From: Haliea sp.
GTDB taxonomy: Bacteria; Pseudomonadota; Gammaproteobacteria; Pseudomonadales; Halieaceae
DNA length: 64,000 bases
Direction of reading: 5' to 3'
NCBI GenBank assembly: GCA_024642265.1
Contig: JAHEBL010000009.1
Span: 1-64,000 of the forward strand
Part shown: piece by piece, positions 40,147 to 45,202 of the stretch
How the letters are laid out: each line of letters starts with the position of its first letter
Numbering within the stretch: the first letter of the stretch is position 1
Notes under the pieces: model-generated
What the model was told of the DNA's origin: nothing
The model's input: the letters and a program-made list of their open reading frames with translations, nothing else
Database searches by the model: none
Position numbers and translations under genes: made by a program

Positions 40147-41094
40147 GTGGCTTCCGGCGAACAATGTTACAGGTTCCTCTGGAACAGAAAGTGGGTACCG
40201 CGGCGCCTGTTGCGCCACCTGTACAAGCGCCTCGCCCGGCGCGGGGCCGCGCCTGATATCCCCTTCGTGGCCGACTTTTTCGGCTTGCGCTACCAGGGCA
40301 ACCTGAACAACAACATCGATTTCAATATTTACTTCTACGGTGCGTTCGAAAAACCTCTGCTTTTCTTTCTTCGGGATACATTCACTAAACTTCCCGGTGA
40401 ACAGCGGGTATTTGTCGATATCGGCGCCAATGTCGGGCAGCACTCGCTGTTCATGTCAGCTCAAGGAGCACAGGTTCATGCCTTCGAGCCCTTTCGCCAG
40501 GTGCGCGAGCAGTTTATGCGACAGATCGAAGCCAACGGGCTGCAGAATATCAGCGTCCACCCGCTGGGCCTGGGCAACGAGAATACCCGCTTGCCGTTTT
40601 TTGCTCCCACCGGAACGAATGCGGGTATTGGCTCCTTCGACGCCGGCAGTGTCGGTAAGGGCAATGTCAGTATAGGTGAGCTCCAACTTGCCCGAGGGGA
40701 TGATTATTTTTCACGCCACGGTATCGACAGGATCGATTTGCTGAAAATCGATGTGGAGGGATATGAGAAACTGGTGCTGGAAGGGTTACGGGAAAGCCTG
40801 CTCCGCGAGCGCCCGATTGTCGTATGTGAGATGACCTTCGGCAATGCGCTGTCTTTTGCCTCGATTGAGGATTTGCTGGAGCATCTGCCGCCAGACTATG
40901 CGCTGTTCAGCTTCGCCAGGCGCAAGGCCGACGGCTCAAAGGCGCGCCGGCGCAATGCGCGCAACCGACGCTCCGGCATCTACCGCGTTATTCCGCTTAC
41001 CTGCCTGCTCGACAGCGGCCAGGAAGACGTTATCGCCTGCCCGCTCGAGAAAAGCGAGCTGCTGCCGCGCAGCAATCCTGGCGCCGGCTCATAA
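40147..41094 (+). CDS. FkbM-family SAM-dependent methyltransferase (intact copy)
   Basis: 315 residues from GTG 40147. SAM-binding core VFVDIGANVGQHSLFMS (about residues 78-94), acidic HAFEPF and KIDVEGYE (about 200-207) are conserved FkbM features; FkbM methylates hydroxyl groups of sugars or polyketides. The N-terminal WVPRRLLRHLYKRLARRG is basic and shared with the truncated copy. The ribosome binding site (GACAGG) is weak. The gene begins 3 bases after the TerB stub stop, as a read-through of the old arrangement. Confidence 0.88.
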   Translation: MASGEQCYRFLWNRKWVPRRLLRHLYKRLARRGAAPDIPFVADFFGLRYQGNLNNNIDFNIYFYGAFEKPLLFFLRDTFTKLPGEQRVFVDIGANVGQHSLFMSAQGAQVHAFEPFRQVREQFMRQIEANGLQNISVHPLGLGNENTRLPFFAPTGTNAGIGSFDAGSVGKGNVSIGELQLARGDDYFSRHGIDRIDLLKIDVEGYEKLVLEGLRESLLRERPIVVCEMTFGNALSFASIEDLLEHLPPDYALFSFARRKADGSKARRRNARNRRSGIYRVIPLTCLLDSGQEDVIACPLEKSELLPRSNPGAGS

Positions 41095-41166: not shown

Positions 41167-43053
41167 TCAGGGTGCAGTTCCCCTGCCCTCTCTCAGGATC
41201 AGGTCCCGGCGGGCGAGAATCGCTTCGATCTGCCGGGGATGCAGGTATTGCGACAGCTCACTGCTGAGCTTGTCCTCGTCCAGGGATTCCAGGCGCCCAC
41301 GCAGCAGGTCGGAAACATCAATCGTCACCTTTTGATACTGCTTGGGCCGCTTCTTGGTCGAGCGGAACGCCCTGCTGTGGTCTATCAGCTGCAGCATCAG
41401 ATCGTTTTTGGTCCACAGGATATTGCCAAGGTTGCGATCGTCATTGTGAATAAGAATGTCGAATACAACGCGCAGTCGGTACTGCTCATACTGTTCACAG
41501 TACCCAATGAATTCCGGCTGCTGTTCGAGGCGTTCAGTTTCCGTGATTGAGTTGTCTACCCAGTCCGACAACGCACCCTCCTGCCCCTCTACCGTGGTGA
41601 CCACGGCGGTGGGCACGACCTGCAGGTCGAGCATCCGATCGAGCTTGTAGGCGACGACATCGTAGACATAGCGATCACTGTCATCACTGCGCCTGGAAAA
41701 GTAGCTGGATTTCGACTGCAGACCCGGGTCAGTATCCTCGTACTTGAACACGGCGTCGTTGGTAATGCCGTCCTTTTGCTGTGTGACACGCTTCGGCTTG
41801 GTGATACCGGCTCCAATGGATTCAACATTGACCACGGGGGCCGTGAGCATGAATTGCTCCAGTTCCGCGTCACTCATGCCCGAAAGGCGCCGGGCGATGC
41901 TGCGCTCCTCCGTGACGGGCTGCTCCTGCCGGGCGCCACCAAGGTAGTGCACATAGTCTGGACCGCTACCTGAAATTAATGCCGATGCGCGGCCCTTGTA
42001 GACGCTGGTGAGCATGCCGGTGTCCAGCCTGATCGCCAGGCCGTCCATCCGTTCGAGCACTTCACCCCGTGTGGGGGTGTGTCCCATTACTACCTGCCTC
42101 GCCCCTACCTTCTTGAGAAACCGCTCGGTATTGAACGACTCGGAATAGGGATTGCAAAGGGCGGTACCGCGGTACCAGTTGGGGCTTTCTTCACTGAACA
42201 GGTATGCCTTCTGTGCCTCGAATACCGTATTGACCGCGGGGAACCAGTTCGCCTTCTTGCGGGGATTGGCTGCGGCGAACTCTTCCACCCGGGCGGTCAG
42301 AAAATCCAGCCGATCGTGGTAGTCGACGTACCATGGCATTACACCCGCGGCCCGCAACTCTTCCATGCTCGCCAGAAAGTCTCCCAGCTCCCCCTGAAGT
42401 TTGCCATTGATGGACGCCAGGGACTCCTGTACTGCCTCACTGGCAATACCGCCGTGCATATAAACCTTGTCATTGACCTTGATGACGAAGGGCTGTTGGA
42501 TCAGCCAGCTGCCGATGGCGCCGTCCCGGGAAAAGGCCTTGCGCAACGCAATGAAGCCCCGCGGGTAGGCATCGTCGAAGCGCTGCCGAGCGTCAGCCTC
42601 GCTGCCACCGGGATTGAATGCGCGGTACTGCGCATACACCTCGTCCCGCTCTGCCTGGGTTTCTTCCGCGGCGAAAGCGGCAAACTCCTCAGGTGATGTA
42701 TACCTGAGGTCTCCGGTCATTATCATGACTTCGTGGTTGCCCAGCACCAGGTGCACGGCTCCCCCTGCCTGGGCCGCCTGTTGCTCGAGCTTCATCAAAA
42801 GCTCTATGACTTTGCGCGAATCAGGCCCGCGGTCCACCAGATCACCAAGGGATACCAGGTGGGTATTCCCACCGCTCCAATTGAGCTGCGCATCCACCAC
42901 ACCGACTTCCTGCAGCATGGTCGACCAGTCCTTGTAGGCGCCGTGAACATCGCCAAAGGCCACCACCCGCCCCGGGGCGTCAATATCATACTCAGCGGCC
43001 AGCGCACTCGCCGAAAGAAAGAAAACGAACACCCATATAGAAAAGCGGTTCAC
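41167..43053 (-). CDS. Secreted metallophosphatase fused to an atypical kinase-like domain
   Basis: 628 residues from GTG 43053, which gives a clean signal peptide (MNRFSIWVFVFFLSASALAA); a TTG at 43107 would precede it. The first half is a PPP-type metallophosphatase: GDVHG near 34-38, GDLVDRG near 70-76, GNHE near 105-108. The second half (from about 410) has KPKRVTQQKDG then AVFKYED, an ATP-lysine-like site, and HNDDRNLGNIL with LIDHSRAF near 536-561, resembling the catalytic and metal loops of PI3K/HipA/FAM20-like kinases. Such opposed activities in one exported protein are rare. Kinase activity is inferred. Confidence 0.8.
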   Translation of the reverse strand: MNRFSIWVFVFFLSASALAAEYDIDAPGRVVAFGDVHGAYKDWSTMLQEVGVVDAQLNWSGGNTHLVSLGDLVDRGPDSRKVIELLMKLEQQAAQAGGAVHLVLGNHEVMIMTGDLRYTSPEEFAAFAAEETQAERDEVYAQYRAFNPGGSEADARQRFDDAYPRGFIALRKAFSRDGAIGSWLIQQPFVIKVNDKVYMHGGIASEAVQESLASINGKLQGELGDFLASMEELRAAGVMPWYVDYHDRLDFLTARVEEFAAANPRKKANWFPAVNTVFEAQKAYLFSEESPNWYRGTALCNPYSESFNTERFLKKVGARQVVMGHTPTRGEVLERMDGLAIRLDTGMLTSVYKGRASALISGSGPDYVHYLGGARQEQPVTEERSIARRLSGMSDAELEQFMLTAPVVNVESIGAGITKPKRVTQQKDGITNDAVFKYEDTDPGLQSKSSYFSRRSDDSDRYVYDVVAYKLDRMLDLQVVPTAVVTTVEGQEGALSDWVDNSITETERLEQQPEFIGYCEQYEQYRLRVVFDILIHNDDRNLGNILWTKNDLMLQLIDHSRAFRSTKKRPKQYQKVTIDVSDLLRGRLESLDEDKLSSELSQYLHPRQIEAILARRDLILREGRGTAP

Positions 43054-43165: not shown

Positions 43166-43513
43166 TCAGTCGGCGGAATCCCTGGGGAGTGAGGGATGAC
43201 TCAGGTTCAACATGTATTCCGCCGCTGCTTCGACATCGTAATCGCTCAAACCAGGCTCTCCCCCCTTCGCAGGCATGCTCAGGTACCCCTGCTTTACATG
43301 TTCGAACAGCACCGCCTCCCACAATGCCGAACGCCCGGGCCAGTCATCCGGCTGCTCCGTTATCGGCGCGCCACCGGCGCCTGTATCATGGCATTTCGCA
43401 CATGCGGAAGCATAAACCCGCTGCCCATCCTCGACTCGCTGGGGTGAGGCAACGATATCTGCACCAGATAATAACAGCCCGGCAAGCAGACCGACTCTCA
43501 CAGCATTACCCAT
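43166..43513 (-). CDS. Small c-type cytochrome
   Basis: 115 residues from ATG 43513, with GGGAGA six bases upstream. A signal peptide (about 1-22) precedes CAKCH at 38-42, the heme-attachment site, and a Met-containing MPAKGG at 80-85 supplies the axial Met. Size and layout fit a class I cytochrome c (cyt c5-like) acting as a periplasmic electron carrier. The neighbouring fused phosphatase-kinase is on the same strand, 112 bases downstream. Confidence 0.92.
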   Translation of the reverse strand: MGNAVRVGLLAGLLLSGADIVASPQRVEDGQRVYASACAKCHDTGAGGAPITEQPDDWPGRSALWEAVLFEHVKQGYLSMPAKGGEPGLSDYDVEAAAEYMLNLSHPSLPRDSAD

Positions 43514-43570
43514 GGTTATTCTCCCACTTAAACAAATCGCCAGCAGCACACGACCGGGAATAATCGGGAT

Positions 43571-45202
43571 TCAGTCTACCCGTATCCGCATTTTACCCTC
43601 GGCCCATGCACCGTCAAAATCAGTTGCTCGCAGTACCACCTCAACTTCGGTGCCGGGTTCGCCAGGGGCTCTTCCGCTGAAAAAGAGCGAGTCCGACTGG
43701 AAATTCAGCCAAGTCGGCAGGGCCTCGGACGAGTCCAGGCACGCGGTGAATGCCAGAACCTCCCCCTCGTCAGGGTCTATAAACGTGTCCGCGGGCAGCT
43801 CAAACGCAAAAGAACATCCGGGCTCCACCACCCGATCCTCAATAAGCCGATATAAACGGGGGGGCAGGTTGAGGCCCGCCTCCTTCTCCTGCACATGAAA
43901 TTCCTTCGCAACCGCAACTGCCAGTCCCAGCCATACCATAGCCAGCACCATGTTGACCGTGGCAAATTCCCCGACGCCAAACTCAAACCAGTGTAGTCCC
44001 ACATAGACCGCCAGGGCCTGGGCGAGATCGCCAAAGCGCCAGAAAAAGCCCTCGATGGTGGTCTTCCCCTCGTACTTCTTCGCGGGACTCAAGGGGAGAT
44101 AAAGGGCGTGCCGGGTGGTATTCATCAGGGAGTAATCGGTTGCATTCTCAAATAGCTTCACCACCCTGATAATGCTGAATATGGGTATGAAAACCACCAT
44201 GCCGTAGCCGATTATGGCGATGATTGGCAGCACGAGAATCGCGCCTCTCACGCCGATCCAGCGCAGAATCCGGGCTACCACGAACACCTGCAGCAGCAGG
44301 GTCAGCAGATTGACGATGGAAAAAAATGAGCCGTAGAAGCCGGCGATCACCCCGCCCCTGTCGATAGCCGGGTCAGCGGCGACAAGATCGTTTGCATGGC
44401 GCACTACCAGCTCCGCAAGAATGTACTCGCCGGTGGTGTTCACCCAGTTCAGCAGGATAATCAGCAGGGCCAGCAGCAACAGGTAACGGTCATTCAGGAC
44501 CAATGAAAAGCCACCCCAGAAGCCGGCTTTCTCGGCATCGTTGCCGGGTCGGTCCTGCGCGGTGGATCCCGGCGGGATGGACTCATGTCCCCAGCGAACA
44601 CAGGGGATGGTCAACGCGAGCAAGCCCGCCGCAATGAGCAGCAACGGCCATGGCCCGATCTGGCGAAACAGGAAACCGCTCAGGGCGGGGGCCACCAGGC
44701 CACCCAGGGTCGCTCCCACCATTATAAGGGGGAAGAGACGCTGGCCGCTCTTCACGTTGAAACTGTCGGCGGCAAAGGCCCAGAACTGGGCGGTGATCAT
44801 CACGCTGAATATGCCAACCCAGACGTAATAGGCAAACCCGATATTGAAACCCGCGCGACCCAGCAGGTAGAACAGCAGCAGGTTAAACAGGAAAAAGCCA
44901 GTGACATAACGGGTGAGCTGCCGCCTGTCGATACGACGAAAAAGCGCGCCGTAAAGTGGGACGACCAGCAATAGAAGCCCCGCGGTAACCGCGTAGGCAT
45001 AACTCTTGAACTCAGCACCGGACCCGGCCAGCAGCAAGGGTTCGCGGACCGTCTTCAAAATGTAATAGGACAGCATCAGCAGCAGCGCGTAGCTGAAAAA
45101 TATCATCACGCTGCGCCCTTCACCCGGGCGCAGCCGCGTAAACAAGCTCAGCAGCCTGTCCAGCCTGGTCAATCTGTAGGGCCATTCTGCCATGCCGGGC
45201 AC
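43571..45202 (-). CDS. ATP:ADP-translocase/MFS-like transporter fused to an Ig-like domain
   Basis: 543 residues. The N-terminal 425 residues have about twelve TM helices with features of the Npt/ATP-ADP antiporter group (SYYILKTVREPLLL near the first helix, NATDYSLMNTTRHALYLPL in the later half). The last 90 residues (about 450-543) read as a dystroglycan-type cadherin/He_PIG beta-sandwich: FIDPDEGEVLAFTACL, LPTWLNFQ, LFFSGRAPGEPGTEVEVV. A transporter carrying such an Ig-like tail is unusual; whether the tail faces outside depends on helix count, which I cannot settle. Confidence 0.85.
   Translation of the reverse strand: MPGMAEWPYRLTRLDRLLSLFTRLRPGEGRSVMIFFSYALLLMLSYYILKTVREPLLLAGSGAEFKSYAYAVTAGLLLLVVPLYGALFRRIDRRQLTRYVTGFFLFNLLLFYLLGRAGFNIGFAYYVWVGIFSVMITAQFWAFAADSFNVKSGQRLFPLIMVGATLGGLVAPALSGFLFRQIGPWPLLLIAAGLLALTIPCVRWGHESIPPGSTAQDRPGNDAEKAGFWGGFSLVLNDRYLLLLALLIILLNWVNTTGEYILAELVVRHANDLVAADPAIDRGGVIAGFYGSFFSIVNLLTLLLQVFVVARILRWIGVRGAILVLPIIAIIGYGMVVFIPIFSIIRVVKLFENATDYSLMNTTRHALYLPLSPAKKYEGKTTIEGFFWRFGDLAQALAVYVGLHWFEFGVGEFATVNMVLAMVWLGLAVAVAKEFHVQEKEAGLNLPPRLYRLIEDRVVEPGCSFAFELPADTFIDPDEGEVLAFTACLDSSEALPTWLNFQSDSLFFSGRAPGEPGTEVEVVLRATDFDGAWAEGKMRIRVD

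Follow-up and report, generated by a model that had tools for sequence, protein, structure and literature searches.

A predicted exported fusion of a Shewanella-like phosphatase with a kinase-fold domain in Halieaceae, and its relatives with one degenerate half

The bifunctional kinase/phosphatase enzymes PFKFB, Pnkp and AceK carry opposing or linked phospho-activities in a single chain, and bacterial Pnkp joins its kinase to a phosphatase of the PPP type; unlike the protein described here, all three are cytoplasmic, have other kinase folds and have known substrates. Among the kinases with which the C-terminal half of this protein is compared below, CtkA, HipT and Fam20C are protein kinases, and neither CtkA nor the PI4KII enzymes are known to have a phosphatase domain. 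Regarding the phosphatase half, Shewanella-like phosphatases have been described (available parts of PMC535813 and PMC2887360), and the Shewanella enzyme is characterized in the accessible part of PMC5454105 as a metallophosphoesterase that acts as a tyrosine phosphatase. The solved chains of the Shewanella cold-active protein-tyrosine phosphatase (1v73, 2z72 and 2zbm; 331–342 aa) are without a kinase domain, unlike the fusion. A literature search returned no description of such a phosphatase–kinase fusion in the titles and abstracts among the matches listed, most subscription journals lying outside its coverage. The available part of a survey of the Legionella kinome (PMC9758233) places additional families of bacteria close to the FAM20/CotH group and notes no such fusion, and the portions at hand of PMC7948968 and PMC10870513 contain nothing on one.

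The protein is encoded on the reverse strand of the window, by which we mean the whole stretch of 64,000 nucleotides of Haliea sp. contig JAHEBL010000009.1 that was analysed, by an open reading frame at positions 41167..43053 that starts with GTG at 43053 and specifies 628 amino acids. A preliminary description, made from the sequence, had reported a metallophosphatase joined behind a signal peptide to a kinase-like region; the coordinates proved correct and all the motifs that it quoted (GDVHG, GDLVDRG, GNHE, AVFK, HNDDRNLGN and LIDHSRAF) were located in the translated frame. The N-terminus, VNRFSIWVFVFFLSASALA-A, reads like a Sec signal and its maximal 12-residue hydropathy is 2.35, which supports the proposed export signal; the putative signal peptide covers approximately residues 1–20 (42994..43053, reverse strand), as judged by reading and hydropathy, with a predicted cleavage site. 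All 29 fusions of the window's clade reach a 12-residue maximum of at least 2.17, and of the 47 parsed sequences among 50 other relatives 46 reach 1.6 or above, the remaining one (L136) standing at 1.59; the three unparsed rows are L166, L167 and L169. The mature full-length protein was modelled with AlphaFold2 from 29 aligned sequences with a pLDDT of 89 and a pTM of 0.88.

By its motifs and predicted fold, the N-terminal domain (approximately residues 24–362; 41968..42984, reverse strand, delimited by profile, PDB sequence and fold matches) is a Shewanella-like (Shelph) PPP phosphatase, and phosphatase activity is predicted for it. Reading and alignment place the metal motifs GDVHG at 42940..42954, GDLVDRG at 42826..42846 and GNHE at 42730..42741, all on the reverse strand, and these are followed by GHTPT (42070..42084, reverse strand) and then by LDTGML, which corresponds to the (I/L/V)D(S/T)G motif of bacterial PPPs as defined in the available part of PMC2887360. 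The Shelph motif set (GDxHG, GDxxDRG, GNHE and (I/L/V)D(S/T)G) is thus complete in the window protein. The Pfam Metallophos profile matches the fusion protein at E 1.1e-12, and the phosphatase half gives in addition a weak match to TIGR04075 (Pnkp). In the PDB sequence search the best matches were 2z72, 1v73 and 2zbm (1e-31 to 5e-31), and the full model superposes on the same three structures at Z 31.2–31.4 (31.4 for 1v73, with an rmsd of 2.3 Å over 268 residues and 31% identity over them), the next rows being at 21.5. The N-terminal domain model hence adopts the fold of the Shelph group, and the window protein has in common with the Shewanella enzyme and with the Shelphs/SLPs this fold, the metal motifs and the (I/L/V)D(S/T)G motif, so that the assignment to the PPP-type metallophosphatases is upheld. 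Within the window's clade, the motif residues of the phosphatase half are kept in 28 of 29 aligned sequences.

The C-terminal domain (approximately residues 385–622; 41188..41901, reverse strand, delimited by the structure model and fold matches) is the kinase-like part of the protein. Its top profile matches are HipA_2 (PF20613; E 3.6e-6, over 44 residues only) and the SCO1664 family (TIGR03843; E 4.2e-7), both matching all 24 members of alignment A1 at E ≤ 1; neither family is known to have a signal peptide or a phosphatase domain. HipA_2 scores 26.9 bits with the whole protein and 28.3 bits with the C-terminal piece alone for a cut-off of 27, and it is the sole kinase-side profile to reach its cut-off, and this only with the isolated domain. 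TIGR03843 (33 bits for a cut-off of 172.4), PI3_PI4_kinase (PF00454; E 0.003, 19.8 bits for 27.1) and Pfam Fam20C (E 0.046, 15.8 bits for 26.8, with 1/24 members matching at E up to 1) all remain below theirs. Structure prediction of this domain, proposed in the preliminary description as a check, was run with AlphaFold2 on 29 aligned sequences (pLDDT 78, pTM 0.78); a kinase fold was found, and the opposite outcome, a model with no kinase fold, was not seen. The top Foldseek match of the model is DrFam20C1 (E 9.8e-7), and VIA-align gave Z 15.3–16.5 with PI4KII, 13.6–15.3 with Fam20 proteins and 13.2–13.9 with CtkA, followed by HipT (9.3–11.7), HipA (9.3–9.5) and CotH (9.4), other kinases (ATM, mTOR, CDKL1) being at about Z 9. 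The model therefore has, at the level of the fold, the two-lobed architecture of the Fam20/PI4KII/CtkA group, a shared kinase fold being in itself no proof of activity. The link to Fam20 rests on the fold, since by sequence the kinase profile found nothing better in the PDB than matches at E 0.38–0.96 (hydra Fam20 xylosylkinase and Fam20A).

A complete set of catalytic residues can be placed on this fold. In the available part of PMC5865150, hydra Fam20 is described with a Lys133/Asp152 ion pair and with Asp299 as catalytic base, and in the HMMER alignment (weak, E 0.38), with correspondence to the published numbering made by counting residues, K437, D460 and D539 fall on Lys133, Asp152 and Asp299. 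Lys437 of the VFK motif (41743..41745) would thus be the ATP-binding lysine, Asp460 of SDRY (41674..41676) the ion-pair acid and Asp539, in the catalytic loop HNDDRNLGN (41422..41448), the base, while LIDHSRAF (41365..41388) contains Asp558 and is the predicted equivalent of the DFG motif; all are on the reverse strand. Asn544 of the same loop is predicted to be a metal ligand, which we assume by analogy with kinase motifs. The five residues (ATP lysine, acidic partner, catalytic Asp, and metal Asn and Asp) are invariant in 29/29 sequences, that is the window and 28 others. Like the Fam20 kinases of the secretory pathway, the window protein has this fold, the ATP lysine, the ion-pair Asp and the catalytic Asp in equivalent positions and a predicted extracytoplasmic setting; it differs by a DRN in place of DRH, a Fam20C profile score below cut-off, the fused phosphatase and its bacterial origin. 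With PI4KII and CtkA, the Helicobacter kinase, it shares the fold, the PI3_PI4_kinase profile being below cut-off. Taken by model and residues, the C-terminal domain is a kinase fold of the PI4KII/Fam20/CtkA type with a complete, conserved catalytic set and predicted activity, and the fold matches (Z 13–16) and the full catalytic residue set support the earlier comparison of this region with Fam20, PI3K and HipA kinases.

The same architecture recurs in Halieaceae. A search for homologues, likewise proposed at the outset, covered 97 genomes, of which 24, counting that of the window, have a near-full-length relative. The kinase domain was identified in 28 named loci, most of them from Halieaceae, with L063 coming from a K189A-clade MAG and L065 from one labelled Deltaproteobacteria; the two sets overlap, being largely of the same species, and are not independent. 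This recurrence argues that the fusion is not a chance event, and the invariance of the five kinase residues in all 29 rows accompanies it. The kinase-domain profile matches 31/140 genomes of the window's family, including G002, where the domain is degenerate, and G026, where it is a 90-aa fragment; in the window's own genome the single match is the fusion itself. Farther afield, two genomes besides the window's own match this profile in a class-wide draw of 369, and a phylum-wide search of 398 genomes with the kinase alignment added one weak match (G814, E 1.4e-4). No relatives were detected on viral contigs with either the fusion protein or the kinase-domain alignment as query, and among plasmids 5 records gave matches, all of them short, confined to the phosphatase and covering less than 80%.

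Outside the window's clade, a second state of the protein was found in two other gammaproteobacterial families. In family f155, reached via outside genomes, 7/53 genomes match, 4 of them at full length, and in family f196 80/101 genomes match, about 70 at E below 1e-110, and 30 of these loci were fetched. These families provide 36 of 37 degenerate-kinase fusions, the last being L033, a divergent relative from a genome of the window's genus that is no paralogue of an intact copy, genome G002 showing this one alone. The phosphatase positions are intact in 37/37, and among the kinase residues K437 is kept in 2, D460 in none (Arg or Lys in 31), D539 in 2, N544 in 6 and D558 in 3, so that 25 sequences keep none of K437, D539, N544 and D558, 11 keep one and 1 keeps two. 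The reverse case is L063 (450-2081), which keeps the five kinase residues and is 57% identical to the window protein in the kinase half, with 9/10 checked phosphatase positions lost and a phosphatase branch of 7.9 changes per column; it is a naturally occurring pseudophosphatase with an intact kinase domain attached.

In a quick tree of the phosphatase domain, 13 unfused rows (support 100), 29 rows with an intact kinase (99) and 36 with a degenerate kinase (81) form groups and L033 is unplaced; L101, identical to L068, L037, which the pattern did not pick up and whose genome G015 is represented by L169, and the short matches L105–L107 had been dropped. The tree is compatible with one fusion event, and active relatives of the fold, rather than the tree, suggest that the kinase domain was originally active. 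In the window's clade, the mean identity is slightly higher for the kinase domain than for the phosphatase (0.662 vs 0.633; 28 rows, L063 left out), whereas in the degenerate-kinase clade it is lower (0.475 vs 0.540; 36 rows, L033 left out).

With 37 of 37 relatives having a degenerate kinase domain beside an intact phosphatase, and L063 the converse, either half appears dispensable; the two activities are thus not always needed together, which argues, as far as sequences can tell, against a strict need for both in one chain. The preliminary description had suggested a self-resetting modification switch, and this idea, in its simple form, is weakened by the separation of the two activities in relatives (none of the 37 has more than two of the four key kinase residues, and L063 shows the opposite loss). 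Regulatory pseudokinase domains are known, and the kinase-fold domain could serve chiefly to regulate the phosphatase by sensing a nucleotide or ligand, with phosphotransfer minor or absent even where the residues are intact. Such a role would explain why the 37 fusions retain a degenerate kinase domain and a cysteine pair (see below) with an intact phosphatase, but we regard it as fairly unlikely for the window protein: catalysis seems to have been selected in its clade, since the five catalytic residues are kept in 29/29, even in L063 whose phosphatase is degenerate.

Regardless of the state of the kinase domain, two cysteines are shared by the fusions. Cys300 in the phosphatase domain (42154..42156, reverse strand) and Cys519 in the kinase domain (41497..41499, reverse strand) are kept in 66/66 (29/29 and 37/37, L063 included) and are the sole cysteines beyond the signal in 60/66. 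Unfused Halieaceae Shewanella-like relatives lack the cysteine conserved in the fusions: none of 13 has a cysteine at the position of Cys300, and 12/13 have no cysteine at all after residue 25. This pattern suggests an inter-domain Cys300–Cys519 disulfide, and as such a bond requires an oxidising compartment, its prediction supports export.

A further question is on what the C-terminal domain would act. It may use a lipid, a sugar or a small molecule, or catalyze some other kinase-fold chemistry such as AMPylation, as the closest folds include lipid kinases (PI4KII) and, next to Fam20C, the xylosylkinase Fam20 of hydra, and the kinase fold is known to host other chemistries (available part of PMC10870513). 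The protein kinases CtkA, HipT and Fam20C are found at similar or lower Z, which does not discriminate, and overall we judge a substrate or chemistry of this kind unlikely.

In lineages with a degenerate or absent kinase domain, a second gene accompanies the phosphatase. N1, a gene of roughly 360 aa, is adjacent or one gene off in 18/20 degenerate-kinase flanks, which had been picked before N1 was known, and it adjoins 6/6 of the strongest unfused phosphatases, also found before N1 was known (a weaker unfused match, G075, E 3.8e-17, being left out of the count); the adjacency of N1 to the 13 unfused phosphatases of the tree is by selection, as these were found through N1. By reading, N1 has a signal-like N-terminal segment, conserved cysteines and the motif order E, GNTD, HN, PYDFD, which in our view recalls that of CotH kinases. 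Identification as a CotH kinase was unconfirmed by Pfam, NCBIfam, PDB profile search and hhalign: 1/17 sequences match the CotH profile, at E 0.0057 and below cut-off, the N1 consensus gives no CotH match, and hhalign returned a probability of 3.8, or with more rows 12 (local) and 30 (global). N1 could not be aligned with the kinase domain of the fusions. The cysteine-rich N1 family (L138–L156 except L152, and L158–L177), for which no curated family was found, lies mostly beside Shewanella-like phosphatases.

Within the window's family, N1 is present in 19/140 genomes, the window's own being without it; in 14 it adjoins a phosphatase gene (13 unfused and 1 degenerate-kinase fusion), and the remaining 5 genomes have an intact fusion at some other site. 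None of the 29 intact-kinase loci yielded N1, the short matches in L157 (35 aa) and L061 (76 aa) being discounted, as they come from one over-long N-terminal query frame and overlie the fusion gene. It may be that kinase activity is provided in these lineages by the adjacent exported CotH-like protein, the fused domain having decayed. As the phosphatase has a kinase-like partner, either fused and intact or separate as N1, in most loci examined, an extracytoplasmic phosphorylation module is favoured over a chance fusion.

The surroundings of the intact-kinase form are different. In the window, a c-type cytochrome gene (43166..43549, reverse strand) separates the fusion gene from a gene for a membrane protein of the TLC ATP/ADP-carrier family (43571..45202, reverse strand), and an FkbM-type methyltransferase gene (40147-41094, forward strand) is convergent with the fusion gene; the 28 other loci of the clade contain no match to either the cytochrome or the methyltransferase. 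The window TLC gene scores 44.9 bits with Pfam TLC (cut-off 21 bits) and six homologue neighbours 38.6–85.7, and with TIGR00769 (NTP/NDP exchange transporter) the window gene scores 33.9 bits, below the cut-off of 387. Its C-terminal Ig-like He_PIG domain makes it an unusual fusion; Pfam recognizes He_PIG also in the TLC genes adjoining L041 and L154, and in that of L040 with a weak match.

A TLC gene is found within about 0.5 kb in 16/29 intact-kinase loci against 1/20 degenerate-kinase loci. In 14 of the 16 it is directly downstream on the same strand, in L040 convergent and in the window upstream beyond the cytochrome gene; for the other 13 loci, the flanks fetched contained no TLC gene. 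Across the family, TLC is present in 27/31 genomes with the kinase domain against 10/109 without it (Fisher p 1e-16, not corrected for descent; 2 of the 10 below the Pfam cut-off), and by genus in 12/14 against 3/14 (p 0.002), while control genomes have it in 0/14. Genus g5 runs against the trend, its sole kinase genome being without TLC and five others having TLC without the kinase. Since one TLC gene adjoins a degenerate-kinase fusion (genome G002, L154) and 13/29 loci have none nearby, TLC may serve something else. L154 (G002:C753), from the window's own genus, combines a degenerate-kinase fusion, N1 and TLC in one locus.

A second transporter gene, encoding an SDF (Na+:dicarboxylate) symporter fused to a solute-binding SBP_bac_3 domain, lies 67–93 bp upstream of the fusion gene in 16/29 loci (identified with Pfam for L043, 2666–4825, and with BLAST for the remaining ones), the window locus being without it. 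That the locus serves nucleotide or solute scavenging, with the phosphatase hydrolysing external nucleotides or phosphoesters, TLC and SDF-SBP importing the products and the kinase domain incidental, would suit these transporter neighbours and the ApaH-type nucleotide hydrolases among PPP relatives, but is very improbable given a phosphatase nearest to the Shewanella protein-tyrosine phosphatase, not to ApaH, and strictly conserved kinase residues.

The explanation that we prefer, and to which we accord an even chance, is that the protein is an exported two-domain enzyme writing and erasing phosphate outside the cytoplasm. In this enzyme, the Cys300–Cys519 disulfide would fix both domains together after export, the C-terminal domain would move phosphate from ATP onto an extracytoplasmic target and the phosphatase would dephosphorylate this or a partner target. 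Periplasmic ATP could be supplied through ATP/ADP exchange by the TLC-family carrier encoded next to the fusion, or in some other way where no TLC gene is nearby, and the binding domain of the SDF-SBP symporter, where this gene is next door, is a candidate target or partner. Against the proposal stands the general view that there is no ATP in the periplasm. More tentatively, and with well under an even chance of holding in all its parts, we propose a bacterial extracytoplasmic phosphorylation system that would comprise its own writer and eraser as well as a source of ATP, in which a TLC-fed, Fam20/PI4K-like kinase would be disulfide-locked to a PPP phosphatase, and which elsewhere would use a separate exported CotH-like kinase together with a pseudokinase remnant.

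Little is documented about phosphorylation outside the cytoplasm of bacteria, where ATP is generally considered to be absent. Because natural separation-of-function variants exist (degenerate kinase, n=37; degenerate phosphatase, n=1), the roles of both halves and of the predicted disulfide are open to direct dissection. A conserved and apparently exported kinase-phosphatase, often with an adjoining gene of the ATP/ADP-carrier family, is a concrete, testable candidate for extracytoplasmic phosphorylation.
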